From Loxodes magnus (Eukaryota; Ciliophora; Karyorelictea; Loxodida; Loxodidae): DNA of 64,000 nucleotides. The notes below the pieces were generated by a model. That model was not told where the DNA came from. It worked only from the letters and a program-made list of their open reading frames with translations, and ran no database searches. A program made the position numbers and the translations under genes. Location of the stretch: assembly GCA_946699065.1 (NCBI GenBank), contig CAMPDV010000431.1, positions 62,001-126,000 of the forward strand, read 5' to 3'. Within the stretch, counting starts at the first letter, position 1; every line of letters begins with the position of its first letter. Shown here piece by piece: positions 3,585 through 47,515 of the stretch.

Positions 3585-6500
3585 ATGGAACTGTAAATAA
3601 TAATTCTAACACTTTTTATCTGATTGCTTACTTTTAGAATGGTACAAACTCAAACCTCTGGCCTTGTTAAAATAACTTGAAACTATAAAGCATTTTGATA
3701 AGCTTAACCAGTAAAAACTTTACAATAATATGGGATAGAGTCGACTTAAAATAATTCTTCTTTTTCATTAACATTCTGAATTTATAATTATTGCCTGATA
3801 GAGGATAAAATAAGCTTTTTTTAAATATCTGAAAGTAATGCTACTTATTATAATAGCTTTAGCATATACAGCTAATAAACTCAGACTAAGGATTTAGTTA
3901 TATAAACTTTAGTAAATTTTACTTCTGCTAACTAAACTTACTATTATGCCGCGAATATTACTGTACCAAATTCTTGTAACTAATGAATGTTTATAGGAAT
4001 AAAATATTGAGAATAATAAGATTTATCAGGTAGAATTAATATTTGTAGTACTCAGTTTTAATATAAAGGATTATAATTAAGTTGTAATGATTCAAATATA
4101 TTAGAATAGTACTACTTTAAGTATTTCTCTAGCAATGCAAGGGTTTATATTTTGTCTTATAATTTAAGTGTTACTTAAATCCAATTATTATAGACCTTAT
4201 TTTGAGTTAAAAATTCAATAGGTATAGATTATTTCTTTACACAGGCTTTAATAAGAATACCTTGCTTATAAGTTTTTGGAAGCTATTGTAATGGACCTGA
4301 AGTAACAGACTGCTAAGATTATTAGTTTTATAATTTAACTGATAAAAATATTCCATATCAATCTTATAGAGGAAAAACAAATAATTAGATTTAAATGTAT
4401 GATGTAGATGCTAATTTACTTATAGCATATTCTAGAGATTAGTTTAGTTTCTCCACTTGAATTAAAAGTGACTGTTTAAATACAAATATTTAAATCATTT
4501 GACAAATCGAAAGTGCATATCTATGCTATTAAGCTAATTAAGTTTAGAACAATCAGCATAAATTTTAGATTAAATGGAGTTTTAGTAGTAATTTAACTTA
4601 AGCAATCTCTTTGTTTTAATCGTAAGAATTTTTAAGTTGCCAAAACTGAATATTCATAGGTATTTCAGTAAATATAACTAAAAAATATTTATAAGCAAGC
4701 ATTATTATTCCTTCTTATAATAAAATATCTAATTTTTCTCTATCTTATTCTTCAAATTGAGCAATTTATTTAAATTCAACTTAATAATTAGGAGGTAATA
4801 GTTTAAACAATTTTGAAGGGCTTATTTTATAACCTAGATTCTATCTATTTTATTCTAATCTCAGTTAAGATAATTTTACTAATATTGCTTTATCATAAAC
4901 TCCTTGCTTTCTAGAAACTAGTTGTGATACATGTTCATCACCAGAAATTTAAAATTGCTAAACCAACTTAAAATTTATAGAATTATCTGATAAGCCTCTT
5001 AAAGCTTTAGTACCTCAAGAGATATAAAATAAAACTTTTAATGATTTTGAATATAATCCTTAAATATACTCCTCAAATGTATGATCAATAAGCTTTTGAC
5101 TTAAAAATTTAGAATAAACTAACTAAGAATAAATTTTAGTTACAATAGCAAACTATTATTGAATAACAACATAGTATGATGAAGCTTAGCAAGATTAGTT
5201 AATTAGATTAAGAAACACTAGTCATTCTATTTTATAACTTAGTATTTCAACCGATAGAAGCACCTGATTCTTTCTTTCAATTACTTTCTAAAAATCCTAG
5301 AACAAAATCGAGATTTGCTCTATTGATTAAATAAAGCCAATAACTCTACTTTGTTAAAATTCTTATGCTGCAATTTAGCAAATTGATTAAGCATCACTTA
5401 TATAATGAAAAAATACTACAAATTTTAATGGTTCAATGCTATAGCCAAGATTTTATACCTACGATTAATAAATAAATTAAACTGATTGAATCTAAATAAT
5501 TACTTATGATAATCCATGTGTCTTGTTTAGCTAATTCGAATGCATTTCTCCTGATATAAAAGATGATTATCATCTTCCTTTTTTAAATTTCACTAAAAAC
5601 TAAACAGAAACTAATATAAGTAATTCAGATGATTCTATTTAATATACATTTTAAGATTTTAACTACGATCCTTCTAAATATTCCTCTTTAAGCTATAGTA
5701 TAAGTTTATGATTCTAAAATATATAATAAGTTTCAGGATAGAGAAGACAAAGAAATTTATAGTAAAATAAATAAAGAATAGTTTGCTAAATAACTAAGCT
5801 TTATTCTAAATCTATTACTATAGCAATAATACAATTAAATAACTCATTTTCAGAAATTTAAGTACTATTAATACCAAGTTCTAATTTCACTTACACTAAG
5901 TTAATAGAAAATTAGAAATGATACTTCCTTTCTATAAGTTTAAGATGACCTTAAGATATAACTATTTGCTTATAAAAGTATTAGTATAATGTTAATGTAG
6001 CTTGCGATTCTTTAAAGTCTAATTTTATTTAATTTGATAAGTGAAGTAAGATAATTCTAGGATCAAATGATTAATAAGATAACTTTAATGGATAAATTTG
6101 AGATTTTTAATTTTATATCTTCGATACTTTCTTAACTTTCTAAGATTCTTAATAAATATTTACTAATAATTGATGCTCTTAAAAGTGTTAGTGAAGTACA
6201 TGTAAGAGTCCTAATTTATAAAGTTGTACTCCATGTAATAAAACTTGTAAAGACTGTTTAGCTGAAGATATAAATAAATGTACTAGTTGCTTTGATGGTT
6301 ATTGACATGAGAGTAGTACTAATGCATGTAAACTATGCTCAGATTAAATATAAAATTGTTAAGCATGTGATTTCTAGGATAGCATAATTATTTGTAATAT
6401 TTGTAGTGGAGAGTATATTTTAGACTAAATATTAAATACATGTAAAGCTTGCTGAGACTTAATATAGAATTGTACTTAATGTACTTAAACTACTCAAATT

Positions 6501-8942
6501 ATTTGTAATAGTTGCTAATTAGATTATTTACTCTTAAATAATGAATGTATTGGATGCTCTTTTAATAATTGTTAGTAATGCAATAATGATTTTTCTAAAT
6601 GTATCTACTGCAAAGATGGTTATTTCCTAGATTAAAATAATAATTGTCAACCTTGCTCATTAATAGATCAGATGTGTATCAAATGCACAAACCAAGCTGA
6701 ATGTCTATAATGTTAATAGCCTCTTAAGGTATCTGGAAATTAATGCTTACCAAATTGTTTAAGCTACTAATAAGATTCTAACCACGATTAAGTATGTGAA
6801 AATTGCAGCAAAGTTATCCCTTCATGTAATGAATGTAATGAGAAAGGAGAATAATGCTTTAAGTGTTAAAACGAATATATAAATAAAGTAAAAGAATGTA
6901 CTAAATGTAGTGATGAAATTCCAAACTGTGCCACTTGTGAAGATAGTAAATGCATCCAGTGTAATCAAAATTTTCTATTATTGAAAGAAAAATGTGTTGA
7001 AAGTTGTCCTGTCGATACTTATATTTCATAATATCAAGAATGTAAAAAGTGCGATAGACTTTTTGATAATTGTGAGAAATGTAATAGAGAATAATGCATA
7101 TAATGTAAAGAATAATTTAAATTGGTTGAATAGTGTCCTACTTGTAATAATATATAATACTGCATTTAATGTTAAAAGTATATTACTTAAAATAATATCT
7201 GCATAAGTTAATGTGATCAAGGGTATTAAATCTGCTAATAATGCAAGGAAGGATTTTTTTTACAAAATTAAATGTGCCTAGATTAATCAAATAATTGAAA
7301 TAATGAAGAAAAATAGGAAATAGAGCAAGAATAAGAATTAGAAGAGTAAAGTGAGTAAAAAGAACAGGAACAAGAAGAGTAGAGTGACTAAAAAGAAGAA
7401 GAATAAGAACAAATTTAAGAACATGAATAAGAGCAAGAATGAGAAGAGTCGAGTGAATAAAACGAAGAAAGATGGGGTGATTAAAGTAATTTAGAAAATT
7501 ATAGTAAAGTTCCTAAAGATATGAACGACTTAAATTTAGCCTAGAATGAGGAAAAATTTATAAAATAAATTTAAATTTTTTGCTTAATAATAGCGACTAT
7601 AACTGCTGCAGCAGGATATTCTACTTTAGTTGCAAGTTAAGGATCCTCAGATTGCTGCTAATAGTTTTGGGTTGCTTAATGTTTAGACGAAATGATCAAA
7701 CTAACAGGCTTCATATCGGTGATGATGCCTAATGTTTTATAAGCTCTTTATATAGTAACTAAAGATTTGAAATAGATAATAATAGATTTACTTGGAGTTA
7801 ACTTGGATTCTAAAATAGAGTCTTAAGGAAAAATATGATATAACTTATAAATCTAAAGCATTAATTCCTCTACCTTTATTTCGAATGGGATCAGTGAACT
7901 GTTCGACGTTTGTATATGCTGTGCTATATTTTATATAATTTGAGAATTAAGAAATTTGGATAATAAATTAGGAAATTATATGAAAAGAATGTATGAAAAT
8001 TATAGATATTCAGCCTTTATAAGAACAGGTATGAATGTATCTTTAGGGTTAATGATTTCTATTTTATTATAGATTAGATTTTCAAGTCTGAAAGATTTAT
8101 ACGTTACTTTTAATACTTTTATCTCTTATTTCTTTTTAGTAAGTTATAATATACAGATTCTAATGATAGCTTTCTGTTATGTAGTATTCACTCAGATAAA
8201 AAAATATAAATAAGCAAATCTAGCAATACTAAAAGCTTAAGAAGTAACTATGGAACTAATATTAGAAAAGAGGTAAATAGAATAAAGATTCAACAGTTTA
8301 TTTTGTGAGCTTAAAGAAAATAATAAACCTGGAGCTTTATATTTCTATGCTATTTTTCTTATGAGAAGAGTAGTAGTTGTATTAATCATGATTATAGGTT
8401 AAGAATATCCAGAACTTTAAATATCAATGACTTTATTTTTATAGTTCATGTGGATTTCCTATTTGATAAAAACTAAACCATTGAAGCATTAATTTATACT
8501 TATAGTGACTATTATCAATGAAGTTTGAATTTTTATTTTGCTTCTCTAGTTTTCATTTTACATCCATCCAATTAGTAGTAGAATAGAAGATTTTGCATTT
8601 TCCGTTGTAATAGTTACTATGCTTTTATTACTGTTTAATTATCTTTTTGCTTTAGCTCTAATTATTTATAATTTTCATAAGTGGAGAAGAGAGTAAGCAA
8701 AAGTAAAGAATTTTTAAGTATAGAATGACTAAAATACTACATAGCACTAAATCCACAATACTCCTACTTCAAGGGATCAATACACAGATAAATTTCCTAA
8801 TGAATCAGTTTTAAAAGAGTAAAATAGCCAAACTCAAGTCTAGGAATTGCAAGGTGATAGGTTTTATAACCAAATTCAAATATAGGAAATGCAAAGCGAT
8901 AGATTATTTTTTAAGAAGAAAGAGGAAGATTGAGAGAAATGA
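3585..8942 (+). CDS. Large Cys-rich multi-pass membrane protein, copy 1
   Basis: A single 1,786-codon frame runs from ATG 3585 to TGA 8940-8942. Residues 1-24 form a signal peptide (MELQIIILTLFIWLLTFR). The ectodomain first carries a laminin-G/lectin-like region with FSTWIKSD and NWIFIG motifs. Residues about 870-1235 are furin/growth-factor-receptor-type CxxC repeats. A Glu/Gln-rich acidic linker covers about 1240-1330, several membrane segments lie between about 1330 and 1700, and a Gln-rich cytoplasmic tail ends the protein. Internal TGA codons, for example at 3621, 6303, 6453, 7296, 7941, 8526 and 8931, are all in this frame, and several align with Trp in copies 2 and 3. No introns are needed. 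Such proteins in ciliates are usually surface proteins of unknown ligand. The domain order is seen in the sequence; the function is not known. Confidence 0.9.
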
Positions 8943-11079: not shown

Positions 11080-14000
11080 ATGAAAGAATAAATATATTTC
11101 TCTATTTATAGCTTTAAAAAAATTTAACTTGGTCTTTTAAAAATAACGAAAGAATTAATTTCCTAATTTAGAGAATATAATAGCTTAAGAATGTATGAGT
11201 ATGAATATCAATAGTTTAAATTATAAGAATTAATGTTAAGTCTAATACTTATATAATAATTTTCAGAAAATAAATTAATACTTATTTATACCTTACAATT
11301 AGATGAACACTTTTAAAATTAAATAGATTTTAAGTAAATTATAAAAAGCATATTATAAATATAAAAATAGAAAATATTAATTTCTTAGTAACAACAAAAA
11401 GATTACAAGTATAACTATGCTTAAGATTATACAATTGTTTAATTTATCTCTCCTAAAAGCTATTAGATAATTAATAAAATATTATATGAATAAAAAAGCT
11501 CTAAAATTCTTATAAATTAAATTATATCTCTAATTATAAATTTCTTGGCTATTCAATTTATATTTCAAAGATAATTAAAAATAAAATATTTTGCTTTTAC
11601 TAGGATTGATGTTCATTCTTAAGATTAATTAAGATTTAATAAATTTTAAATAAAGCTATAAATTCTTGATTGATATAAATGAGTTTTAATAATTGAATAT
11701 AAATTTCTAAAATTAAAGTTATTAAGATAAGAAAGTTAATTTATTTTTAAGTTTATTATATTTATCATTTTGACTATTATTAGCTTTATTAAATCTATTT
11801 TATTTTGTAAATTAAATTTATTTTATAAGAGATAAATACTTTTATAAATAAATGTTTGCTTGCAAAATTGATGTAAAGAAATTTATTAATAATATTCATC
11901 ATTACTAATTACTTTACTATTCTTTTAATTTAACCTAAACAAGAACATAACTCTATTATTTTATTCAATCAAGAAATTTTTTTTTCCTCTTCATAAATTT
12001 AATTAATACCATCAAATAGAAAAAGTTATTAACTAATAAGTTCAACTAAGAATTTTAATCTTCAATTAACTAAAAGATTTGTTGTGAACAAAACCCATAT
12101 ATCTTTTTAAGAATTATTTAATAGAAAATTAAAAGTTTTAAACAGCTATTGCTTTATCTTCTAAACTCTTTTAGATAGCCTTTTTAAGATAAAATGTAAA
12201 TCAATATACTTCCTAAGCTTTGATATTTTAAAAAAGACGAATAAAATACTATTAAAACCCTTTTTAATTGTTTATTTAAGAGATTAGGGATATATTTAAA
12301 AAATATACTAAATGATAGAAGAATTATAATAATAATTACTATTAGCTTATACCTAAAGATTTGAGCTAATATATTCTAGTATAAAGCTAAAAATAGTTAT
12401 ATAAATATAGTTAAAAATACCAACTTCAAGAAATATAAAGTTATATTTAGAATTAATAACCTTTAACTATTAAATTTGATAATAGAAATTTAAATAGATT
12501 TATTAAGAAATATAATTCTAATTCATTTATATATTATTATAAATATAGATAATTTAAGCAGAATTTCACTATCATTTTATTTTTATTATATTTATATTAT
12601 CATTGCTTTTATTTTTTCATATCTATAATTAAGAATAAATTGATAGTGATAATTTAATCTGAAACTAGCCTTTAATATCAATAAATTAGCCAATAATTCT
12701 CTTATAATTTAAAATATTGTTATTAAAAATATATAGACTTTGATAAATAATAAATATATCAAATATTATACATTATAGCTAATTTTAGATTCTTAATTCT
12801 ATTTTCAATTTATCTCTTATTATATAAGCTTTCTTTATTTTTTAGGGTTTAACACCATAATTTAACTTTGTAAATTAGAAAAAGCTATAAGCTGCTTGTT
12901 TAAATTATTATTTTTTAATTGTCTTAAAATAAGATAATAATAATAATTATAATTAATTAAAGTGATACCACCTTTCATTAGGATCATCACTGATATAATG
13001 TTTATAAATGTTAAAAAAAGTATTCTGGATATTAATAAAGAATAATTATTAGCATAATTTTAAATTTTAGATAATAATCTATTTTAGTATTTATGATACT
13101 TATTTATTTTAAACTATTACACTTTTTTAATTTTTTATCTCTGTATATCCTTATCATTGTTAAAATAGAAACTTCAATTCTTACTTTTAACAAGGAATAT
13201 AAAAATATTTATTAAATAAGCAGATACTTTTATAAGATAGAAAAGCTTTGGTATAAATAATAGTTATAATATAAAAGGAAATTATAATTTTATTTATTTA
13301 TTTAGTAAATGATATAGCTTATAACACATTTATTAGACTAAAATAACTAATCATAACTTTATCTTATATATTATTATTATAGCCTCTTTAACTTTAATAG
13401 GTTATTTAAGCAATTATAATTATATAGCATATCATCGTTTTTTGAAAATAATTGCCATTCTAATAAATTTGCTTTAGAAATTTCCCCACTTTATCAGCTT
13501 CTCGATTTTTAATTTAAATTTCCTCACTACTTCTTTTAATAATTGCATTAATGTAATATAATAAAGAATTATCTAAATAATAAATCAGAGGTCTAGTATT
13601 AAATAGTTATATAGATTACTCATATAGGCTAGACTAAATAACAATAATAATAAAAATAAAATAAATAATTGTAATTAAGCTAATGAAAGTATAAGATAAA
13701 AGTTTTTAAAAACAATTATAAAAAAATAATTGATAACTATATAAATTAGTTTTATATATCAATTTTCATAATTTAAGGAAGCTAGTAAGAAGTTTTTTCA
13801 TAATATTACACTCTATCTTTAGACATTAAGATTAGAAAGTTAAATAAAAATAAAAATAAAAATAAAAATTTTATAATTGTTTATGCTTGGAAGACTTAAT
13901 ATTTTAAATTTTAGTAGTTAACTAGGAAGGGTTAGAATCATAATTAATTGCAAAAAAAAGAAGAGCAAAATATAAAAAACTTAATAGATGCATCTTTTAT

Positions 14001-17401: not shown

Positions 17402-20400
17402 TCATTTCTCTAAATCTTTCTCTCTCTTTCTCCAAAAAATATTATCACTTTGTATTTCCTAGATTTAAGTTTAATTATTTTACTCTCTAGAAACTGACTC
17501 ATTATGATGGCTATGTCTCTTTACTTCTTTTTTTATTCTTGAGGTAGGAATATTATGAACATCGATTTATGTAGTGCTTTGATCTTTCTTATCTTAGAAA
17601 TCCTAAACTTTGGTTTGCTCGCCTTTTTATCTTCACTACTTGAAAAGGTTATAAATAATCAGAGCTAAAGCAATAAGATAATTAAACAGTAATATAAGCA
17701 TAGTTACTACTACAATGAAAAAGGCAAAATCTTCTATTTTACTACTAAATGGATGGATGTAAAATGACAACTAGAGAAGCAAAATAAAAATCCATATTTC
17801 GTTGATAAGATTAACCACGAATATTAAAGAATGCTTCAAAGGTTTAAATTTTATCAAATAGGAAATTCACATGAACTATAAAAATAAAGTCATTGATATT
17901 TAAAGTTCTGGATATTCTTAACCTATAATCATGATTAATACAACTACTACTCTTCTCATAAGAAAAATAGCATAGAAATATAAAGCTCCAGGTTTATTAT
18001 TTTCTTTAAGCTCACAAAATAAACTGTTGAATCTTTATTCTATTTACCTCTTTGTTATTATTAACTCTTCATTAGTATCTTAATCCTTAAATATTGCTAG
18101 TGTAGCCTATTTATATTTCTTTATCTAAATGAATACTGTAAAACAGAAAGCTATCATTAGAATCTGTATATTATAACTTACTAAAAAGAAATATGAGATA
18201 AAAGTATTCATAGTAACGTATAAATTTTCTAGATTTGAAAATCTAATCTATAATAAAATAGAAATCATTAACCCTAAAGATACATTCATACCTGTTCTTA
18301 TAAGTGCTGAATATCTATAATTTTCATACATTCTTTTCATATAATTTCCTAATTTATTATCCAAATTTCTTAATTATCAAACTACGAAAAATATAACAAA
18401 GCATATACAAACATCGAACAGTTCACTGATCCCATTCGAAATAAAGGTAGAGGAATTAATGCTTTAGATTTATAAGTTATATCGTATTTTTCCTTAAGAC
18501 TCTATTTTAGAATCCAGGCTAACTCCAAGCAAATCTATTATTATCTATTTCAAATCTTTAGTTACTAAATAAAGAGCTTATAAAACATTAGGCATCATTA
18601 CTGATATGAAACCTGTTATTTTTATCATTTCATCTAAGCATTAAGCAACCCAAAATTATTAGCAGCAATCTGAGGATCCTTAACTTGCAACTAAAGTAGA
18701 ATATCCTGCTGCAACAGTTATAGAAGATACTATTAAACTAGTACTTTATAATGATTTTATAAAAGTTTCTTATTATTATGTTAAATTCAAGTCATTTATA
18801 TTCTTAGGAATTTTACTATAATTTTCTTAAATATTTAATTCATTTTCATGTTTTTCCTTTTGAGTTTCTTCGTTATTATTTTTTGTTTTATCATTACACT
18901 TTCCATTTTCTAATTTAAATCCTTCTTCACATTCTTCACATTCGTTAGAACTATTATCGCATTCTTATACACAAGTTTTGTTTAAAACTTGATTTTGTTT
19001 ACATTTTAAGCAATTTTCTATCTCACTACAACTTGGACACTACTCAGTAAATAAAAATCCTTATTTGCATTATGTGCATTCTTCTATACCACATTTCTCA
19101 CAATTTTCAAAAATCTAATCACATTATTTACATTCCCAATTTTTCTGAACGTAGCTTTCGAAAGGACAGATTTCAACACATTTCCCCTCCAATAATAGAA
19201 AGTTTTGATTGCACTAAATGCATTTACTATTATCACAAATAGCACAATTTTAAACTTCATCGCTACATTTGATACATTAACCTTCCTTATTTATAAATCC
19301 ATCCTAGCACTTAAAGCATTAATCTCCTTTCTCATTACATTCATCACAAAAAGGAATAATTTTGGTACAGTTTTCACATATTAAGTCTTAGTTAGAATCT
19401 TATTAATAATTTTAGCAATCTAGTAAGCATTAATTTTCTGATAGTTTATATGGAACTTTACATTGCTAACATTCAATTTAGTCTTAGCATTTAATACAAT
19501 TTTAATCTATTTATTAGCAAGATTCACAATTTTAGTTTTAGTTAATAAAAAATCCATCTTTACATTATATGCATTTAGTTAAAGTATTATCACACAATTA
19601 ACAGTTAGTTAAATTGCAATAAAAGCATTTGTTATATAATAGTAAGTAATTTTATTCGCAAGAAATGCAAGTAACTGCAGTATTACTTTAAGTGCAGCTA
19701 TTACAATTTTCAATAGTATTTTGACAAGTTTAGCATTAATTTTATTATTCATTTAAAAAATTTCCTTCTACACATTATTTACAAATAGGAACTTACTAGT
19801 TATAAAAACAAATTTTACAACTCTAAATTAAGTCTGAGCAAAGTTTACAAATATAAGAATTGCTTTAATATAAATATCCCTCATAACAACTAGTACAGTT
19901 ATTAATATCATCAGCTAAACAATCCTTACAAGTTTAATTACATTCAATGCAACTATTCATACTTGGACCTTTACATGTACTTCATTGGCAATTTAACTCA
20001 CAATCATTATTATTGAATATTGTTTAAAAATCTGTTTCTGTTACAAATGTATCAAAAATATAAAATCTAAAATCATAAATATTTCCTATGAAGTTATCTT
20101 CTTTTTAAATAGCTCCTAATATTATTTTGCTTTATTTATCAAATTAAATAAGTTCAAATTATCTAATAAAGGTAATTCCTTCTGGTAAATTTCTAAATTA
20201 CTATAATTAAATGCTAACTTCTTAATCTTTTAAGCTTATAGTTAGCAAATATCACTTCATATTTTCTATTTAGTGTATTTACTATTCATTTTATTTTAGA
20301 GCAGTTAAGTATACGTAAACATTTGAATATTAAGAATCTATTGCTTGTATGGCTACTATAATAGATTCCTTATATAATGAAATTATTTAACAGACTATTC

Positions 20401-22588
20401 TTTATTTATAGGTTTATAAGTTCCTTTATCTTATATCTTTTAAATTTGTTAATTATTCTGTATTTTAGAATCATAGTGATAAACTATACTACTAAGATGA
20501 ATATTTTAAAGGATCATAGCCTAAACTAGAAAATGTGTACTAACTAGCCTCTTATTAATCATCTATGAAAGTTTCTATTAATTTCTGAGTAAAGCTTATA
20601 AAATGATAATGCTAATCATCATATATATCAGGAGAACTACATTCAAATTAGCTAAATAAAGCACATGGATTTTCTAAGCTAATTAGTTGTATTCAATCAT
20701 CTTATGTTATTTCTTGATTATAGGTATAAAATCTTGGTTATATTATAAATCCACTAAAAATAGGAGTTTAAGTAAATGATAATATCTAAGTATAATAAAA
20801 TGAAAATAAACTATATTAAGATATTTACTATTTACAATTTAGTGTTTAAGGTTTTATTTAATCAGTATAGTAAATGGCTATAGTTTATAATTTTGAATTT
20901 AAGGTTAGCTATAGGAAGAATCATTTATCGATACTTATCCTAATATTTTGATTTAAAGTTATTTGTCCATTATAATAAAAGATAATATTCTGGGTATTTG
21001 AGAGTTAATCATATTATATTTTTAATTAGTATAAACTCCCTATTTAAACTAAATTTTCTTCTTAAATTGTAGTTCCTAAACTATAAAGCCAAAAGCTAAT
21101 AGATCAAATTTTTGAAGAATAAAGTAAAGGATTATATCCATAATTATCAAAAGATTTATCTTAAATATTTGATGAGTATTAAGCCACTAAAGAATATTCA
21201 GTTAGTTCTAAGAATTTTATATTAGTTTAGCTATACTAAACTTCAGGTGAGATGCAAGAATCATAACTAGTTTCAAGTAAACAAGGGGTTTATGAATTAG
21301 CTATTTAGATAAAGTCATTCTCATTTAGAAAAGTATTGAATAGATAGAATCTTGGCTATAAAATTAATCCTTCAAATTGATCTTAATTTTCTCCTCCTAA
21401 AATAAAATAAGAGCTAGATGATATTGTAATAGTTCATGAAACTTGATGCAAAATGCTAATTTAATCATTAGGAGATATAATAATAATTTAATTTATTTAG
21501 TCTTGTAATTAACTTGTAAAACCTATGAAAATTCAGTTTGAACAATTTACTAATGAACTTTGTTCGACAATAGTAATTGCATTTGAAAAATCTGTATCTG
21601 GATTTCATAAAATTTTAAATTTATGCTAATATGATTATATTTAAGTTGCTTTATAACATAAGAATTAAGAGTCTAATTATCATATTACTTGAAGTTCTTG
21701 ATTAATGCAATCATTTTTAATTCAAGTAGTGAAACTAAAAGAATTTAAGGAATAATCCAAAATATTTTAATTGTCTTTATCCTTTAATATTGCTTGCTGC
21801 TTTAATTTACCTTAAGTAGATAAAAAGGAAATGCTTTAATCAGCTAAGTTATAAAACTGAAAATTTTAACAGTCAGTAATTTCAGGTCCAATACAATAAC
21901 TCCCACAGAATTATAAGCAAGGAATTCTTTAAAGAGCTTCTGTAAATTAATAATCTATATATTATGAATTGCTAGTTCAAAATAAAGTCTATAAAAGTTA
22001 AATCTAAAAAGTAATGCCATCATACCCTTAATAATTTAATATATAAATATAGTCAGAATTTTCGAAGTATTTAAAAAAATATTCATCTAAAATTTAGGAA
22101 TCATTACAACTTCAATCAAACCCTTAAACCTAAAAATTAGTACTGCAAATCTTCAGCTAACCTTCTTATAATAGCGATTCTCAATATTTTATACCCACAA
22201 AATTTCATTTGTTGCAGGATTTCCCCAAACTATAATCCACTTTTCCATAAGTGTGGTTAAATGTAATAAATTTAAGAAACAATTCCTCATTCTAATGTTA
22301 GATTATGTTTATGTTAATTTATAAAGCCTTATCTTATCTGTATTAGTAAAATAAGATTAAATATAATTCATTATATACTATGCAAGGATGATAAAGTCAA
22401 AATGTTAATGAAAAAGATTATTAACTTTATTGAGTGTCAATTCCATATTCCTGAAAAGATTTAAAATCTTTAGTTTTATGATTCTAATAAAAGTTAGTGA
22501 GTTCAATAAAATCCTAGGATTATCCTTGCAGGATATTAGCAATAAATATTAAAGCAAACGGCAGGTATTATTTTGCCAAGGTAGCCAT
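17402..22588 (-). CDS. Large Cys-rich multi-pass membrane protein, copy 2
   Basis: ATG 22588 to TGA 17404-17402 is 1,729 codons on the minus strand. The amino terminus MATLAKQYLPFALIFIA is a signal peptide. The laminin-G-like segments (FTTWIKND, NCSNWIFIG), the CxxC repeats (about 18.9-20.0 kb) and the membrane region follow the order of copy 1. The acidic linker is much shorter than in copy 1. Where copy 1 has TGA at 8526, copy 2 has TGG (17794-17792). Where copy 1 has TGG at 8682, copy 2 has TGA (17635-17633). A TGA in the first membrane loop is shared. A short stretch near 17,520-17,585 matches copy 1 only in a shifted frame, indicating two compensating indels. It is convergent with copy 1, so the pair forms a tail-to-tail inverted duplication. 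Confidence 0.88.
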
Positions 22589-32072: not shown

Positions 32073-35000
32073 ATGGCTGAATCTAACAGGTGCAGCTCAT
32101 GCTTAGTTCATTTCGACTCTTAAATACGAATTCCCGTAACCCTTCCTTGTGGACATTAAGTATGTCAAATTTGTATTCTTGAAGAATACTAAAGAGAGGG
32201 TTCTAATCAGTGCCCAAAAAGAAACTGTAGAAAAGTTTCATTTAATGACCCAAAAAATTTAATAAGCTAAAAGGGCTAATCAAGCGAAAGTTAATAAGAA
32301 TACAAATAACTTCATCTTGAAGAAACTAAAATTGAACTATCTTATTAGCAAAAACCGAAACTAATAAAAGTTAAGATTTTAAGTGAAAATGAAGAAGAGA
32401 TAAGCTTAACAGTAGAGGAAGGAGAAACAATTGAATAACTGAAATAAAAAGTAGAAAGACTAGAAGGAATTGACGCTGATTTTTATGAACTTTATAGAGG
32501 ATAAGAAAAATTAGATAGTTAGCATAAAATAAATAAAATGGAGAATAAAGATGAAGTTTAGCTAGAATTAAAATTGAAGGCTTGTAATTAATATAAATTT
32601 AAGGAAGTGAGAAAATAAGATTTAGAAGGTAAAAAATAAAGATAGAAAGTAATTAATAAAAATTAGTTTTCGAGATAATGAAAAAAGAATATGGTAAATA
32701 ATATAATAATAGAATGTAAATAATAATAAAAATTAGAAAGTATTAAATAATCAAAAATAGGAGAAAGTAAGAAAATTTAAAAAAAGGCTAAAATGACTTC
32801 GAAAAAAGTTAGAAATAAATGTATAGGAGGTAAATTTTAAAAAAGTGTGTAATATATTTAACAAAAGTGCGTAATACTTTAAAAACTAGAAAGTAATAAA
32901 TAAAATTTAAGAATGTAATATAATAAAAAAGATTGTAAGAATACTAAGAAAGGGAGTAATAATTAAATATAGAATGTAAAAAATAAAAAAGATTGTAAAA
33001 TAATTATGTTAAGATGGTAATTTAACAAATCCAGAAAGTAAATTATTTAATATATAGAAAGTAAAAAAAACAAATAAAGGAGGTAAAAATTAAAATAAGA
33101 TGGTATTTATATTTAAAATAGAATGAAAGATATTTTAAATATTTATAGTGGGTAAGAAATTTTAAATATTTATAGTGGGTAAGAAATTTTAAATATTTAT
33201 AGAATGTAAGATATTTTAAATATTTATAGCGGGTAAGATATTTTAAATATTTATAGATTGTAAGATATTTTAAATATTTATAGCGGGTAAGATATTTTAA
33301 TTATTTATAGATAGTAAGATATTTTAAATATTTATAGTGAGTAAGATATTTTAAATATTTATAGTGAGTAAGATATTTTAAATATTTATAGTTAGTAAGA
33401 TATTTTAAATATTTATAGATTGTAAGATATTTTAAATATTTATAGATTGTAAGATATTTTAAATATTTATAGTGAGTAAGATATTTTAAATATTTATAGT
33501 GAGTAAGATATTTTAAATATTTATAGTTAGTAAGATATTTTAAATATTTATAGATTGTAAGATATTTTAAATATTTATAGATTGTAAGATATTTTAAATA
33601 TTTATAGTTGGTAAGATATTTTAAATTTTATAGAGAGTAAGATATTTTAAATATTTATAGTGAGTAAGATATTTTAAATATTTATAGAGAGTAAGATATT
33701 TTAAATATTTATAGATTGCAAGATATTTTAAATATTTATAGTGGGTAAGAAATTTTAAATATTTATAGAATGTAAGAAATTTTAAATATTTATAGAGAGT
33801 TAGATATTTTAAATATTTATAGTGGGTAAGAAATTTTAAATATTTATAGAATGTAAGATATTTTAAATATTTATAGAGAGTTAGATATTTTAAATATTTA
33901 TAGTGGGTAAGAAATTTTAAATATTTATAGTGAGTAGGATATTTTAAATATTTATAGAGAGTAAGATATTTTAAATATTTATAGAGAGTAAGATATTTTA
34001 AATATTTATAGCGAGTAATATATTCTAAATATTTATAGTGGGTAAGATATTTTAAATATTTATAGAGAGTAAGATATTTTAAATATTTATAGATAGTAAG
34101 ATATTTTAAATATTTATAGTGAGTAATATATTCTAAATATTTATAGTGGGTAAGATATTTTAAATATTTATAGAGAGTAAGATATTTTAAATATTTATAG
34201 TGAGTAAGATATTTTAAATATTTATAGTGGGTAAGATATTTTAAATATTTATAGAGAGTAAGATATTTTAAATATTTATAGTGAGTAAGATATTTTAAAT
34301 ATTTATAGTGGGTAAGATATTTTAATTATTTATAGATAGTAAGATATTTTAATTATTTATAGATAGTAAGATATTTTAAATATTTATAGGGAGTAAGATA
34401 TTTTAAATATTTATAGAATGTAAGATATTTTAAATATTTATAGCGGGTAAGATATTTTAAATATTTATAGATTGTAAGATATTTTAAATATTTATAGCGG
34501 GTAAGATATTTTAAATATTTATAGATTGTAAGATATTTTAAATATTTATAGCGGGTAAGATATTTTAAATATTTATAGCGGGTAAGATATTTTAAATATT
34601 TATAGATTGTAAGATATTTTAAATATTTATAGCGGGTAAGATATTTTAAATATTTATAGATTGTAAGATATTTTAAATATTTATAGTTGGTGAGATATTT
34701 TAAATATTTATAGTGAGTAAGATATTTTAAATATTTATAGATTGTAAGATATTTTAAATATTTATAGTGAGTAAGATATTTTAAATATTTATAGTTGGTA
34801 AGATATTTTAAATATTTATAGATTGTAAGATATTTTAAATATTTATAGCGGGTAAGATATTTTAAATATTTATAGCGGGTAAGATATTTTAAATATTTAT
34901 AGGGAGTAAGATATTTTAAATATTTATAGATTGTAAGATATTTTAAATATTTATAGCGGGTAAGATATTTTAAATATTTATAGATTGTAAGATATTTTAA

Positions 35001-37414
35001 ATATTTATAGTTGGTGAGATATTTTAAATTTTATAGAGAGTAAGATATTTTAAATATTTATAGTGAGTAAGATATTTTAAATATTTATAGTGAGTAAGAT
35101 ATTTTAAATATTTATAGTTGGTAAGATATTTTAAATATTTATAGATTGTAAGATATTTTAAATATTTATAGCGGGTAAGATATTTTAAATATTTATAGCG
35201 GGTAAGATATTTTAAATATTTATAGGGAGTAAGATATTTTAAATATTTATAGATTGTAAGATATTTTAAATATTTATAGCGGGTAAGATATTTTAAATAT
35301 TTATAGATTGTAAGATATTTTAAATATTTATAGTTGGTGAGATATTTTAAATATTTATAGTGAGTAAGATATTTTAAATATTTATAGATTGTAAGATATT
35401 TTAAATATTTATAGTGAGTAAGATATTTTAAATATTTATAGTTGGTAAGATATTTTAAATATTTATAGATTGTAAGATATTTTAAATATTTATAGCGGGT
35501 AAGATATTTTAAATATTTATAGAATGTAAGATATTTTAAATATTTATAGCGGGTAAGATATTTTAAATATTTATAGATTGTAAGATATTTTAAATATTTA
35601 TAGCGGGTAAGATATTTTAAATATTTATAGATTGTAAGATATTTTAAATATTTATAGCGGGTAAGATATTTTAAATATTTATAGAATGTAAGATATTTTA
35701 AATATTTATAGCGGGTAAGATATTTTAAATATTTATAGATTGTAAGATATTTTAAATATTTATAGCGGGTAAGATATTTTAAATATTTATAGATTGTAAG
35801 ATATTTTAAATATTTATAGCGGGTAAGATATTTTAAATATTTATAGTGGGTAAGAAATTTTAAATATTTATAGAATGTAAGATATTTTAAATATTTATAG
35901 CGGGTAAGATATTTTAAATATTTATAGATTGTAAGATATTTTAAATATTTATAGATTGTAAGATATTTTAAATATTTATAGCGGGTAAGATATTTTAAAT
36001 ATTTATAGATTGTAAGATATTTTAAATATTTATAGGGAGTAAGATATTTTAAATATTTATAGGGAGTAAGATATTTTAAATATTTATAGCGGGTAAGATA
36101 TTTTAAATATTTATAGATTGTAAGATATTTTAAATATTTATAGCGGGTAAGATATTTTAAATATTTATAGCGGGTAAGATATTTTAAATATTTATAGAAT
36201 GTAAGATATTTTAAATATTTATAGCGGGTAAGATATTTTAAATATTTATAGATTGTAAGATATTTTAAATATTTATAGCGGGTAAGATATTTTAAATATT
36301 TATAGATTGTAAGATATTTTAAATATTTATAGCGGGTAAGATATTTTAAATATTTATAGATTGTAAGATATTTTAAATATTTATAGCGGGTAAGATATTT
36401 TAAATATTTATAGATTGTAAGATATTTTAAATATTTATAGCGGGTAAGATATTTTAAATATTTATAGTGGGTAAGATATTTTAAATATTTATAGAATGTA
36501 AGATATTTTAAATATTTATAGCGGGTAAGATATTTTAAATATTTATAGATTGTAAGATATTTTAAATATTTATAGCGGGTAAGATATTTTAAATATTTAT
36601 AGGGAGTAAGATATTTTAAATATTTATAGGGAGTAAGATATTTTAAATATTTATAGTTGGTGAGATATTTTAAATATTTATAGTGAGTAAGATATTTTAA
36701 ATATTTATAGATTGTAAGATATTTTAAATATTTATAGTGAGTAAGATATTTTAAATATTTATAGTTGATAAGATATTTTATATATTTATAGATTGTAAGA
36801 TATTTTAAATATTTATAGAATGTAAATATTTTTTATTGACAGTTTGTATTTAAAAACTATTATAGTTGGTATTTTTTATTACTATAAGAGGGTATTAAAT
36901 TACCTCAGGCGGTAAGAATCTACTTCTGGTACCTTTTTAATTTTTGATTGTAAGAAATAATTATAAGATGGTTTTGATTTTATTGAAGCTAGTATTTGCT
37001 TATATGAGCTTGTATTATTTAACCTAAGTTAGTAATAAAATGATATAGAATGTAATATTATTAATATTTATAGGGGGTAATGATTGATTTGAAAAGAAAG
37101 TAATGCCTAAAATAATTGATTAAAGAATGTTATAGCAATGATTAATATTAGATTATTTATACTAGGTAGTTATTTTTCTATTTTAGGATGTAAATAATTT
37201 TATTATAAGTAAGTTTTTTATTATAGAGGGTAATTTTTTATATAAGCAGAGATGGAAAAAACATTTAACAGCTTTAAATATTTATCTTAAATTAATGTTT
37301 AATTATTAATTAATTTTTGATTTAGATACTTTAGTTATTTTAAAGTTACTAAGCATATTAGCATTATATTTTAAAATCTTTGCTAACTTTCTTGCCTTTT
37401 CACTTTATTGATGA
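32073..37414 (+). CDS. RING finger + ubiquitin-like protein with about 172 three-nt exons
   Basis: Exon 1 (32,073-32,606, 178 codons) encodes an N-terminal C3HC4-type RING finger (CSSC, CGHQVC, QICI, CPKR) and a ubiquitin-like fold at about residues 110-175 (VKILSENEEEISLTVEEGE, LKQKVERLEGID). An E3 ubiquitin ligase is therefore likely. From 32,607 the gene appears to run as phase-0 exons of 3 nt (plus one each of 27, 6 and 21 nt), separated by GT...AG segments of mostly 14-26 nt. The last exon is 37,247-37,411 (QRWKKHLTALNIY...), ending in tandem TGA TGA at 37,409-37,414. Spliced length would be about 423 codons. A TGA at 32,679 is read as Trp; if it is a stop, the protein is only the 202-residue RING-Ubl part. 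Exon 1 is certain; the downstream exon structure is inference from the periodic splice-site pattern. Confidence 0.72.
32607..37246 (+). other. Microexon/mini-intron array (about 176 introns)
   Basis: The pattern ...AG, three bases, GT... recurs with almost no exceptions. Upstream unique part: introns such as 32,607-32,625 (19 nt), 32,629-32,645 (17), 32,649-32,666 (18), 32,694-32,712 (19), 32,830-32,845 (16) and 33,061-33,079 (19), mostly separated by triplets AAG, AAA, AAT, GAG, TGT, TGC, ATT, GGA or ATG. Central part: the 27-bp array. Downstream unique part: introns at 36,822-36,842, 36,846-36,865, 36,869-36,888, 36,892-36,908, 36,971-36,988, 36,992-37,008, 37,012-37,028, 37,032-37,048, 37,052-37,073, 37,077-37,096, 37,169-37,186, 37,190-37,209, 37,213-37,226 (14 nt) and 37,230-37,246. 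Intron sizes vary and are mostly not multiples of three; exon sizes always are. Two longer ones (36,912-36,967 and 37,129-37,165) look like merged introns. Confidence 0.78.
33125..36842 (+). repeat. 27-bp tandem repeat: 24-nt intron-like core + variable triplet
   Basis: I counted 137 variable triplets from 33,149 to 36,821, joined by 136 cores. The span fits 136 units of 27 bp minus exactly two 1-nt deletions (near 33,625 and 35,030), both inside the core. The core begins GTAAGATATT and ends ATTTATAG. Triplet tally: ATT 34, CGG 32, TGA 17, TGG 11, AAT 10, AGA 10, TTG 9, GGA 7, ATA 4, TTA 2, CGA 1. Core variants are few: AAATTTT for ATATTTT, GTGAG, GTTAG, GTAGG, GTAAT, one GCAAG at 33,718 and one ATAAG at 36,768. 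Higher-order duplications of runs such as TTG-TGA-ATT-TGA-TTG-ATT-CGG-CGG-GGA are visible. The plus strand is nearly free of C. Confidence 0.95.
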
Positions 37415-43089: not shown

Positions 43090-44810
43090 ATGAAGACTAT
43101 TCAGTCAAATTTTCATACTAACAGCAAGAAACCTCGGGGAAGTTAAAGCGTAAATAAGAATTTAATAAAAGAAAGATTTTTGCAAGATTACTGTTTAGAT
43201 TTAACTTTAAAAGCACTAAAAATATTTAGTTATGGAATTAATTAAGAAATGTTATTATAATACTTGAAATAAAAAGGAAACTCATTAGAAGAAATAAACA
43301 TTAACTCTAATGAGGATATTGATAAGTATATCGATTTTTGTCTTAATTTAAACAAAATTATCATTTATTAAATAAGAAATTCTTTAGACTAATACGAACT
43401 GAAGTTAAAAAACTTTAATCTTATTTGTTTAAATATTTATCAAAATTTATTAGCAGAAACAATATAAGGAATATTTTCTAAGTAGCATAATAAATTATAG
43501 CATATTTAGATTTATAATTTACATTAGTTTAATGATAATCACCTGATATCTTTAATGTAAAACTGTCCTAGTTTAAAATCTCTAGATTTGTGTTTATTAT
43601 ATGAACTTACTAATATATCTTTGAAGAAAATAGGAGATTATGGATAGAACTATAAAGAAATATCCTTTTAATTATGTTGAATAACTTTCTAATGAAACTC
43701 TTGGTTATATTTTAGAGAATTGTAGAAAAATAATAAGTTATTTCTTATTGGAATAGAAAATAAAATAAGACTCTACAATCTATGAGTTAAAACTGTAAGG
43801 AGTTAGAAAGCTTAGAATTGATATGTTGTTAAATGTAAGATGAGAATTGAATAAAGGAAATAGTTAAAATAAACGAATTAAAATAATTAAATCTTTTTGA
43901 AATTTAACTAAGCAATAAAGATATAGTACAAATAGTAACTAACTGTAAACATTTAAAATGATTAAGTCTTTTAGATTCAAAGGATGTTAAATAAGAAGGT
44001 TTTCCAATTTGTGATTAAGAAGGATAAGAATATTCTTTTTGAAGAAGTCTTAAATATTTAAATATTGAAAGAACATAAATAAGTGAATAATGGGCTAATT
44101 AGCTTAAATAAAAGTTCGCAAAAGTGACAATTCACCATAATGTTAAGAAAGATAGCAATTAGACTTGAAAGAGCAAATAATATTCTATTAAATTATAATA
44201 TATTAAATAATTCTAAATCACCTTATTCGAAATATCATAAAAATCAAATAAAATTAAAAAAATCTCTAAAATAATTTAAAATCTAATAAAAACTATTCTT
44301 ATTAAAAACAGATAAATGCTAAGCTTGCTTATAATTACATAAAAGAATAATAACCATTAATAAATATTTAATTTTTTAATTTTTAATGAATAACTAATAA
44401 GTTAATTAAGTCTTTAAGAAATTTCTCTTTATTACGACGAAGTTTCATAAAGTAAATAATAAATAAAATTAGAAATTTTAAGATTTTTTAATTAATCTTC
44501 TTATAACTTAAATTGGCTGAATTATTAAACAGAAAATGTTTCTTGTTTCTTATGATTTGCTAAGATGCTTTTATGATTTAATGTCTATACTTTTACTTAT
44601 TTAAAACTAAAATAATTTTAAGTCTAATGTTCACATTATACAGTTTATTTGATTTATTATGACGCTTGTAACAAAGAATCAATAAAACGTAGATAGATAG
44701 AAGACAGAAGAACAAGAGATAATGAAGAAGAAAATGATGAAGATATGGAACTAATAAAAGAAGAATTTTTATTACCTGAAGGCTTACTTGAAGAAATAGA
44801 CATGTATTGA
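43090..44810 (+). CDS. Leucine-rich-repeat protein with a 22-nt intron
   Basis: ATG 43,090 (MKTIQSNFHTNSKKPRG) opens a protein with LRRs of the F-box/RNI type: LISLMQNCPSLKSLDLC, LSNETLGYILENCRK, LKYLNIERTQIS. A GTAAG...AAAG intron at 43,835-43,856 (22 nt, phase 0) restores the LRR frame. A further +1 shift is needed at 43,675-43,680, where TGT TGA must become TGT GAA; this is an indel, a sequencing error or recoding. After the LRRs comes a helical region with two TGA-encoded Trp, then an acidic tail (NEEENDEDMELIKEEF) ending at TGA 44,808-44,810. The conserved stem-loop starts 12 bp after the stop, so it sits in the 3' UTR. The protein is probably cargo of the element. Confidence 0.65.
43835..43856 (+). 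other. 22-nt spliceosomal intron
   Basis: GTAAGATGAG...ATAAAG interrupts the LRR frame. Removing 22 nt joins MLLN to EIVKINELK in phase 0. It shows that introns of this size exist in this genome outside the microexon array. Confidence 0.65.
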
Positions 44811-44822
44811 AACATTTATTAA

Positions 44823-44855
44823 AGAGCTACGCACCAACGAGGTGCTACGCGCTCT
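44823..44855 (+). repeat. Conserved stem-loop, member 3
   Basis: It lies 12 bp after the LRR gene stop codon, with one A-C mismatch in the inner stem. It is followed by TATAATGAAATTTTTTTATT, as in the other members. It could act in 3'-end formation or in element RNA recognition. Confidence 0.7.
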
Positions 44856-45112
44856 ATAATGAAATTTTTTTATTTATATAAAATCATATTAAATGCTATA
44901 CTTAGATCTTAATTATATTTAAATAGTTATAAGTTAATTAGTTTCAAACACAAAGAAAATGTGAATAAAAATAAAGAAAGTAATAAGTTATATTTTAATT
45001 AATTTATTATTTACTAGCTAAAAGAATTTAATAAAAATAGATAATTATATTTTAACTATTAACTCAGTTACTTTAACATTATTTATTTTAAATTTATTTT
45101 ATTATATTTTTT

Positions 45113-45563
45113 AAAACAGCCATAGTTGTTCGAAGGTGAACAACAAGGTCATCTTCATCAGAGGTTGGGGAAGTTAAGTACCCATAATCGACTTTATATC
45201 TTCCTCTGCTTTGGTTTGACCTCGAGACATAAGATTCTTAGACCTTCGACACTAGCTTGGCTTGGCTTCGTTTATTTTTAATTCTGGAACTAAAAAGAAA
45301 TAATATTGCGAGCTTCATCAGAGGTGGGGAATTTAAGTACCCATAATTGACACATGTCGTCCTCTACTTTGGTGATGCAATGAGACACAAACCTGCCATG
45401 TCCTCGAATCTCCAGGAAGTATTAAAGATTACGAGTATTGTTAAATTATATCAGTATTGAACAAGGTCTATCAGTATCTGATAATTTTATCAGTAACAAA
45501 CATTCTTGTCAATATGAAACACTTATTAAAGAGCTGCGCACCAACGAGAGTGCTACGCGCTCT
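45113..45563 (+). repeat. Right terminal inverted repeat
   Basis: This is the inverted copy of 38,848-39,317, with scattered substitutions. The outer end is stem-loop 45,530-45,563. Confidence 0.85.
45530..45563 (+). repeat. Conserved stem-loop, member 4
   Basis: A perfect version of the fold (AGAGC/GCTCT, GCG/CGC, CAC/GTG) forms the right end of the 6.7-kb element. Confidence 0.75.
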
Positions 45564-46328
45564 ATAAAAAAATTTATTTATTTATATAAGGTATATTCTA
45601 GTTTGATTTAAAAAAATAATAATTAATAAATATTAAATACCTAGTTTTTTATTAAGATAGAAAAACTAGTAAGTAAAACAAACTTAGTAAGTTTACTTAA
45701 ATTAATCTTTTATTTATTTCTTGCTTATGATTTTTATTTGTAAGAACTTAATTTTGTGAAATAACTGAAGTTTAGTTTATGGAATTTGATATAAAATATA
45801 TATAATAATAATTAAGTAAAATAAACAAAGATAATAAAGACATACTTCTGTTGGAAAAACTTGCTTAAAAATATTTAGAAAATTAAAAAGGTAAATATGG
45901 CTCTAACACTTAGATTTAAATGTTAATATCTTTGTCTACTCTCTAAAAAGGTACATATATTAAATAAACTTTATTCCTTAAAATTTTATAAGAATCATCA
46001 TATATTAACTTTATATTAATCATTAAGGTAACTGTTCGCCTTCTGTTTTATATTAAATATTAATTTAAATATTAAAATTAACTTAGATTTAAAACAATAA
46101 TTTAATCATTTAAGTTACGTTAAATAAAATATTTTTATTTAAAGCAAATTATTATTTTGGGACTTTCTAAATATAACTATTTCATTAAAATAAAAATAAA
46201 CATTTTATAAATATCTTTTTAATTAATTAGCTAGGCATTAAATATTTAATTTTTTAATTTTTAATTTTGATCATAATTGAATTATCGTAGAAAAATTTAT
46301 GGCTTTTTAAAATAATAATAATAATAAT
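45564..46328. other. AT-rich, no gene seen
   Basis: This is AT-rich sequence between the element and the Gag-like gene. The frame of that gene can be read through here without a TGA, so its 3' end could lie in this stretch. Confidence 0.35.
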
Positions 46329-47123
46329 TTATTAAAATGACTTCACCTTTGTTTGGTTTTTCACGTATTAGTTTGCTATTTATTGCTTAAAATTAAGTTT
46401 CCTATCAAATTTTCTAGGATCTACACTGCTATGTTTCTTTATAATTTTAAGATTATTTTGCTTGGTTTTTCCAACAGGTCGAATCTCAGTCATTTTTATT
46501 GGAATTATTTACTGCCACTTAGATATAAGGAGCTTCTTTGTTTAATTGGAGTATTTTTCTCCCATAGATTAAACCTTCGTTTGTGCAGTATAGTCTAAAT
46601 ATATATTATCATTTATTTATATTATTTTCTTTTATTTTTATTAAAATTGGAAGCAATTTCTTACTTTATGTTCTAAATGTTTACAATACCAGCATATCAA
46701 TATTTTCCAATAGGGATATATTTAGTTACAGTTTGCTATTCTATTTCTATTGGGTCGTTTTGTATTAAGATAGTTCTGATTTACTTATTTTCGAATTTTA
46801 AATTTATCTTACTATTTATTCTGTCTGTAAAATTTTATCTTAAATTTGTCGTAAGTGCAGGTTTAGAACTAATTCAATCATAGTATTTTCCAATTTTAGA
46901 TTTTCCATAGATTTAATAATTTATTAGTTCTTTGATAAAGATCTTTAATAGCTTTTGCTAATCTTAATTCTCTATCTAAAGAAGGTAGAGATCACCGATT
47001 TCATCCTACTAAGTTTTATTAGGTTTTTTGGTGTAGCTTGTTATTTCTTAGGTGCCCTTTTATAATAAAGCCTTTATTTTTAACTATTACTTCAATCAAT
47101 ATTCTTTAGAGATTATGTCTCAT
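46329..47123 (-). CDS. Gag-like protein with CCHC zinc knuckle
   Basis: ATG 47,123 on the minus strand opens a basic protein (KNKGFIIKGHLRNNKLHQK, then LPSLDRELRLAKAIKDLY). A clear zinc knuckle of the form Cx2Cx4Hx4C follows (CWYCKHLEHKVRNC), then a Lys/Gln-rich tail. Two adjacent TGA-encoded Trp (VGWNRWS) precede a Ser-Leu-Pro motif. Knuckles of this type are typical of retroelement Gag/ORF1 proteins that bind RNA. The start lies 85 bp downstream, in the transcription direction, of a stem-loop element, so both may belong to one unit. No TGA defines the end; 46,329 is where protein-like sequence stops. Other CCHC proteins are possible. Confidence 0.6.
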
Positions 47124-47207
47124 TATTATATAGTTAGTAAACTTATATTCCTTTTGTATATTTTATTTTAAATCAAATATTTATGATAAATAATTAAACT
47201 AGATTAT

Positions 47208-47241
47208 AGAGCGCGTAGCACTCTCGATGGTGCGCAGCTCT
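47208..47241 (-). repeat. Conserved stem-loop, member 5
   Basis: Full pairing is kept; the loop reads CATCGAGA, one change from the commonest loop. It is followed, like the others, by TATAATC. Confidence 0.75.
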
Positions 47242-47515
47242 TTAAATTAATTTTATTTAAAATTAATAAAATTTCTCCTTGGAAGTTTCCTCATGTACTT
47301 CACTCCTTTGAAAATTCTGTCTTCTAATAGGGTATGGGTCTGAGTGATGCCCCAAGAGACCTAATCGTTTAGCATCTTTAAACTATCGTTACTCAATGCA
47401 TCTAGTTATTTCCTCTTGGCTCCTACCAAGATTCTTGCTTAGTTTATCGCTCCTGAAGAACTTCCTGGCACTATGAGTTAATTTAATCCGAGTTGGAAGA
47501 TTGGTCCTTCCTATT
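47208..47515 (-). mobile_element. Stem-loop-terminated short element C
   Basis: This is related to 42,360-42,660: the same order of blocks and a perfect stem-loop at its minus-strand 3' end (47,208-47,241). GC content is higher than the flanks. Confidence 0.55.

Follow-up and report, generated by a model that had tools for sequence, protein, structure and literature searches.

The window analyzed here, a stretch of 64,000 nucleotides (nt) from the karyorelict ciliate Loxodes magnus (assembly GCA_946699065.1, contig CAMPDV010000431.1, positions 62,001 to 126,000 of the forward strand), contains a gene in which an open first exon leads into a long array of short GT...AG segments that are spaced, in nearly every case, by a single triplet. 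The segments are candidate spliceosomal mini-introns, and the triplets are candidate single-codon exons. The central part of the array, referred to as the core, is a tandem repeat with a unit of 27 base pairs (bp), and the same pattern continues in unique sequence on both sides of it. Positions are those of the window, and papers are cited by their PMC identifiers. The features of the gene are as follows:

32073..32583, + strand: exon 1, 170 codons and one base (T); RING finger, then ubiquitin-like (Ubl) domain
32584..32603, + strand: intron 1, 20 nt, GT...AG, followed by a 3-nt exon and GT
32604..32606, + strand: first 3-nt exon, GAA, which with the T of exon 1 gives TGA, read as Trp
32607..33124, + strand: upstream unique stretch, introns of 16-21 nt and 3-nt exons, from the parse and the alignment of copies
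32667-32693 (27 nt), 32761-32766 (probably 6 nt), and 32787-32807 (21 nt), + strand: longer exons of the upstream stretch
33125..36821, + strand: core, ∼137 units of 27 bp, each a 24-nt intron GTAAGATATTTTAAATATTTATAG and a variable triplet
36822..37246, + strand: unique stretch downstream of the core, most introns 17-26 nt long (in this parse also one of 14 and one of 37), exons mostly 3 nt; phase-1 peptide ...GTFLIFDYATFKWEK
ending at 36949, + strand: longer exon of the downstream stretch, from the parse
37247..37319, + strand: presumed last exon, with a phase-1 TGA at 37317-37319; stop codon not settled

Exon 1 and the parse of the array

Exon 1 is matched by the Pfam families zf-C3HC4 (3.6e-6, 27.2 bits, above the cut-off of 21) and ubiquitin (2.5e-5, 24.4 bits, slightly below the cut-off of 25.4), which bears out the original prediction in that the array is entered from an intact RING-Ubl reading frame. 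Most of the listed alignments to ubiquitin chains in the PDB finish at residues 166-173, approximately at the end of the exon. By homology, exon 1 is shown to code for a putative protein of RING-Ubl type that resembles E3 ligases. Outside this genome, neither a protein search nor one scan of viral contigs gave a homologue at an E value of 1e-3. The end of exon 1 had been placed at 32606, and the junctions had been read in phase 0 throughout. However, an additional intron lies at 32584-32603, so exon 1 ends at 32583; because this intron was overlooked, phase 0 was read instead of phase 1. The junctions are phase 1, and the window chain contains 18 TGA codons in phase 0 vs. 0 in phase 1. Intron 1 is 20 nt long in 36 of 37 copies of the gene (21 nt in the diverged copy L013). 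The junction itself, with a T ahead of the intron and AG-GA.-GT at its far side, is found in 36 of the 37, with L018 as the exception. A model with exon 1 ending at 32628 was rejected.

The serial AG-NNN-GT pattern was confirmed by counts that do not depend on a gene model. The upstream flank (32607-33126) contains 19 occurrences and the downstream flank 16, compared with 0.90 and 0.72, respectively, expected from the rest of the window, and another 135 with the 3-nt spacer lie in the core. AG-GT spacers of 2, 4, or 5 nt are absent from all three regions, and a 1-nt spacer occurs 10 times, in the core. TRF describes the core as a repeat with a period of 27 and 137.4 copies (33127-36832), and across 135 units its column entropy is at most 0.29 bits in the intron vs. 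1.28-1.76 bits in the triplet.

A dynamic-programming parse from 32584, which admitted exon lengths only in multiples of three, yielded 177 introns (136 of them 24 nt long), 174 three-nt exons, and exons of 27, 21, and 33 nt. An earlier curated parse, with introns 1 and 2 added, contained 172 three-nt exons and one of 6 nt. This is in agreement with the ∼172 three-nt exons and ∼176 mini-introns that had been claimed, and the range of 172-174 reflects two ambiguous places where the count depends on the reading. When any exon length from 0 to 12 nt was allowed, the core of 46 sequences yielded 579 exons, 575 of them 3 nt long, and a free-length parse of 16 arrays gave mostly the same result as the restricted one. 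It also bounds the 27-nt exon differently in the window, L009, and L012, and places a 14-nt exon near the 3′ end in most copies, so the 3′ end given here for the gene is provisional. The last exon had been described as closed by TGA TGA. A phase-1 TGA is indeed present at 37317-37319, but 11 of 20 other copies carry a 1-nt deletion just after 37246, so the closing codon is left open.

The window introns begin with GT in 174 of 177 cases (the AG end was required by the parse), and the three units without it start with GA at 33125, GC at 33718, and AT at 36768. At the 3′ splice site 36927-36928 (intron 36912-36928), the window has TG vs. AG in 20 other aligned copies, and the window copy seems to have lost this site. 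The flank introns (n = 40) have a mean length of 19.6 nt, and 38 of them are no longer than 25 nt. Their length and GT...AG ends fit the spliceosomal introns of L. magnus that were determined by RNA-seq (mean 19.3 bp, mode 17 bp, 93% ≤25 bp; PMC11441545). Among short-intron ciliates, they match Loxodes (mean 19.3 nt), whereas heterotrich introns have 15-16 nt (PMC11441545). Rfam and tRNA scans of the window gave no match.

Conservation of splice sites and exon length

Thirty-seven unique copies of the gene were aligned over exon 1 and the upstream stretch. Among them, 701 of 703 three-nt exons are kept at 3 nt and the other two are absent, the 27-, 6-, and 21-nt exons each keep their length in 36 of 37 copies, and 20 of 23 introns vary in length. 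The sole indel in exon 1 is a 3-nt deletion. Altered splice dinucleotides number 54 among 1,665, and 30 of these belong to L052. A set of 34 copies was formed by setting aside L013 (old and diverged), L050 (large deletion), and L052 (most of the stretch lost). Here every three-nt exon is unchanged in length (646/646), and 15 of 23 introns change length. The 28 distinct indels of this set comprise 25 in introns, 24 of which are not multiples of three, and three in exons (the in-frame deletion in exon 1 and a single base in the 27-nt and in the 21-nt exon). Diversity at the splice-site G is 0.010, compared with 0.110 at intron G (10 sites), 0.130 at triplet G, and 0.085 at exon-1 G. At the 3′ flank, 318 of 320 triplets in 20 copies (without L013) have 3 nt, and 7 of 640 splice dinucleotides are altered. 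Judged from genomic sequence, the comparison shows selection on splice sites and exon length and none on intron length, and from this pattern serial splicing of the mini-introns is predicted. L052 contains one exon of 2 nt and, a few units away, one of 4 nt; together they make six bases and restore the frame.

Genetic code and translation of the tail

In the genome (705,730,643 bases in 7,843 contigs), the spliceosome component Prp8 is present. Its in-frame TGA codons fall on human Trp at three of four sites and on Tyr at the fourth, and in CCT-zeta, TAA and TAG fall on conserved Gln (by-eye comparison). Read from these two genes, the code is that of karyorelicts, with TAA/TAG as Gln and TGA as Trp. 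In this code, TGA is a sense codon that also serves as a stop near the mRNA end (PMC11441545). TGA as the sole stop (Tetrahymena-type code 6) was rejected in view of the Prp8 TGA codons on Trp, and the TGA counts given below still hold as codon counts. Pfam scores of exon 1 were not decisive in choosing between Gln and Glu, Lys, or Tyr for TAA/TAG. With TGA as Trp and the T of exon 1 standing before GA, the first junction codon reads Trp. The TGA at 32679-32681, which had been considered a possible stop, loses that role in view of the Trp positions in Prp8. A model in which 32584-32628 is kept unspliced, with the TGA of the first junction taken as a stop, was likewise rejected as improbable, as indels in 8 of 37 copies would break this link and TGA is Trp. 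In its favor, where the link is intact, 12 of 13 full arrays lack a phase-1 TGA, and at least one is present in 3/3 full arrays with a broken link (L011, L012, and L013); with TGA as Trp, the model is needless for this correlation.

The phase of the tail was analyzed in the 13 intact arrays (1,073 triplets) that remain of 16 full arrays when the degraded L012, L013, and L018 are set aside. TGA occurs 139 times in phase 0 (10.8% of codons), 91 times in phase 2 (9.4%), and once in phase 1 (0.1%); TGG makes up 3.5% of phase-1 codons. In 3,000 shuffles of triplet order, phase-1 TGA averaged 14.4 and 0/3,000 reached one or fewer, and the 91 TGA codons of phase 2 are an excess over a shuffle mean of 74.6. 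Because TGA is sense but also a stop near the mRNA end, a translated tail would be expected to avoid it in one phase, and phases 0 and 2 would need Trp as about a tenth of the protein. At both array ends, phase 1 yields similar peptides, also in the diverged L013. After control for base type, no selection on triplet content was detected either way. Translation of the tail in phase 1 is likely in view of the TGA avoidance, and this conclusion is less secure than selection for splicing. The tail can be read as one in which the frame is kept and the sequence is free.

We consider it probable that the window gene is a member of a large karyorelict family in which the RING-Ubl exon is followed by ∼175 spliceosomal mini-introns and mostly single-codon phase-1 exons. 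Every codon of such a chain would combine one base from one triplet with two from the next, and the mini-introns would presumably be recognized as whole units, so that exon definition would not be needed. Several observations weigh against this explanation. The triplets drift at about the intron rate (0.057 vs. 0.047 at AT sites, 0.154 vs. 0.150 at GC sites), the phase-1 changes comprise 8 synonymous vs. 64 non-synonymous types, with no indication of amino-acid constraint, and variation within the triplet is lowest at the base that would fill the third codon position. A codon-usage score, based on a small training set, favors phase 1 in three of six arrays (L009, L010, and L011) and not in the window. 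The arrays are related (L018 shares ancestry with L019, and L021 with L022), so the TGA counts are not independent. Degraded arrays make up three of the 16 full ones (L012, L013, and L018), with 23 non-GT intron starts in L012; the 27- or 21-nt exon carries a 1-nt indel in two copies; and the 24-nt core intron is a multiple of three, a class that is depleted in L. magnus (PMC11441545). Chaperonin genes (PF00118; CCT/Cpn60) gave 22 full-length matches, two of which contain one TGA, that are unbroken over the domain. These conserved genes therefore lack introns in that region, and single-codon exon chains are not typical of conserved genes here.

The drift of the triplets without amino-acid constraint would suit a chain that is spliced codon by codon yet untranslated, as a spliced 3′ untranslated region (UTR) or in an RNA-processing role. 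The protein would then stop at the TGA of the first junction, which is present in 36 of 37 copies and coincides with the end of the Ubl domain. We regard this as unlikely, as TGA corresponds to Trp at three of four Prp8 sites and is avoided in phase 1 alone, and exon lengths in the upstream stretch are all divisible by three. Moreover, the mean 3′ UTR of L. magnus is 53 bp (PMC11441545), whereas several hundred would be needed here. Since almost every exon length is divisible by three, the frame survives however many exons are skipped, which would also be compatible with removal of 32584 to 37246 in the form of a single long intron or a few of them, the inner sites acting as decoys. This is very improbable given that 93% of L. 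magnus introns have at most 25 nt (PMC11441545), that the inner splice sites are conserved, and that TGA avoidance extends through the core. Taken alone, the core is a clean tandem repeat, and with TGA, TAA, and TAG all sense every frame is open, as for an ordinary unspliced 27-bp minisatellite that is either translated into nine-residue repeats or is non-coding DNA with decayed edges. However, the flank introns vary freely in length (24 of 25 indels are not multiples of three) while exon length and the GT/AG ends are preserved, and their similarity to the core monomer is no greater than expected by chance (mean z 0.41, n = 38), which makes a minisatellite the least probable of these explanations.

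Gene family, array change, and known systems

Exon 1 has at least 151 matches in the same genome; as only 150 of 2,830 first-look candidates were scored, the true family may be far larger. For the 3′ flank, at least 40 matches were found (333 candidates, 40 scored). The core unit occurs at 13,475 + 13,541 = 27,016 exact places genome-wide, and the reversed control pattern of this unit at no exact place in the genome. With ∼34 exact units per gene (16 full arrays), this corresponds to some 800 copies, a rough figure because of differences between arrays and possible duplication within the assembly. The coordinates of 33 copies put array size at 29 to 137 units, apart from a single outlier of ∼467. 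The outlier (L098-L101; G000:C894, ∼73,000-86,800) spans ∼12.6 kb, and four 401-base samples across it are all array sequence; it could represent two genes or a misassembly. Two 2-nt exons occur in L101, which is part of it. The difference between the two assemblies of one study has been ascribed there to misassembled low-complexity repeats (PMC11441545), so array sizes should be taken with care. In a subfamily formed by L012 and L049-L052, intron 2 is longer by 5 nt; L012, the one member examined as a full array, is long and degraded, with many GA for GT starts. Seven contigs (G000:C514, C1404, C6699, C1122, C4950, C500, and C156) end ∼4.2 kb from a gene copy. No telomere repeats were seen by eye in the printed parts of eight contig ends near the gene, and the ends of C514, C6699, and C1122 have a common sequence without a telomere repeat. 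From their sequence, these are likely repeat-bounded assembly ends.

Six compared arrays have the 24-nt intron consensus in common, with a divergence of 1.1 to 16%, but differ in their codons, and the entropy at each triplet position is ∼1 to 2 bits irrespective of array age. The triplets are about equally varied in a young array (1% intron divergence) and an old one (16%; window and L009-L013). Arrays apparently start out with similar introns and dissimilar triplets. Related arrays differ by whole units and by exchange. Runs of 8 and 12 triplets in L028 recur at the start of L025, and two others, of 13 and 12 triplets, recur in shifted position at the end of L020; the last four triplets of the latter 12-triplet run belong to the common 3′ flank. 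Unequal crossing over within identical introns would produce such whole-unit changes and always keep the frame. The arrays would then grow, shrink, and recombine by 27-bp units, with every unit gaining or losing exactly one in-frame codon, so the conserved E3-like head could be joined to a different low-complexity tail in each paralogue. More tentatively, and as a possibility rather than an expectation, the array may be a codon-cassette system, in which a uniform 24-nt intron between single-codon exons lets hundreds of paralogues remake hypervariable E3 tails codon by codon. Crossing over anywhere, or skipping of any exons, would join any codon to any other in frame.

Very short exons of animals and plants occur singly or in small clusters and are not known to form chains of over a hundred. 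Schistosome micro-exon genes have exons of ∼6-36 nt and introns of ordinary length. Microexons of 3 nt have been reported in animals and plants (PMC8042270, PMC7821500, PMC8831610, PMC11162997, PMC12686416), and the L. magnus exons are similar to those of schistosome micro-exon genes in being symmetrical, short, and potentially skippable in frame (PMC4350168). Tetrahymena LRR genes contain tandem arrays of exactly 90-bp exons in phase 2, with introns of ∼120-257 bp (PMC6564038). Common to these and the L. magnus arrays are tandem exon-intron units in a ciliate, a constant exon length that is divisible by three, a single intron phase, and many paralogues with differing unit number, which in Tetrahymena was ascribed to unequal crossing over. 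In contrast, the L. magnus arrays have 3-bp exons, phase 1, 24-bp introns, and an unrelated protein with a RING-Ubl head. In the Tetrahymena arrays the exon is conserved and the intron long, whereas in L. magnus uniformity lies in the intron, and the exon consists of a single codon that varies. Many near-identical intron copies are also typical of introners and of intron gain by tandem duplication (PMC4974935, PMC4457414), but here intron and codon multiply together at a fixed 3-nt spacing and, so far, in one gene family. The consulted sections of PMC11441545 make no mention of serial single-codon exons. The titles and abstract openings of literature on ciliate microexons, Loxodes introns, and consecutive microexons revealed no comparable chain (supplements and preprints lay outside this search), and the literature search returned no paper on tiny exons in Tetrahymena. 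In the literature searched, at the level of titles and partial texts, no description of a codon-by-codon diversity-generating design was found.

Elsewhere in the window, two related cysteine-rich genes are located at 3838-8530 (+) and 18377-22104 (−). With TGA as Trp, the in-frame TGA in the first of them need not mean a pseudogene. At ∼44,100-47,311, a recurrent SRWCAALQ-like peptide string in open frames is probably a dispersed repeat.

If cDNA confirms the proposed architecture, the spliceosome of L. magnus cuts a single transcript far more than a hundred times in succession, at intervals of three bases. This would push intron definition and splicing fidelity to an extreme and would probe how small an exon can be. 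Growth of a tandem repeat would add protein one codon at a time, always in frame, and minisatellite mutation, intron gain, and protein diversification would be tied together in this gene family.

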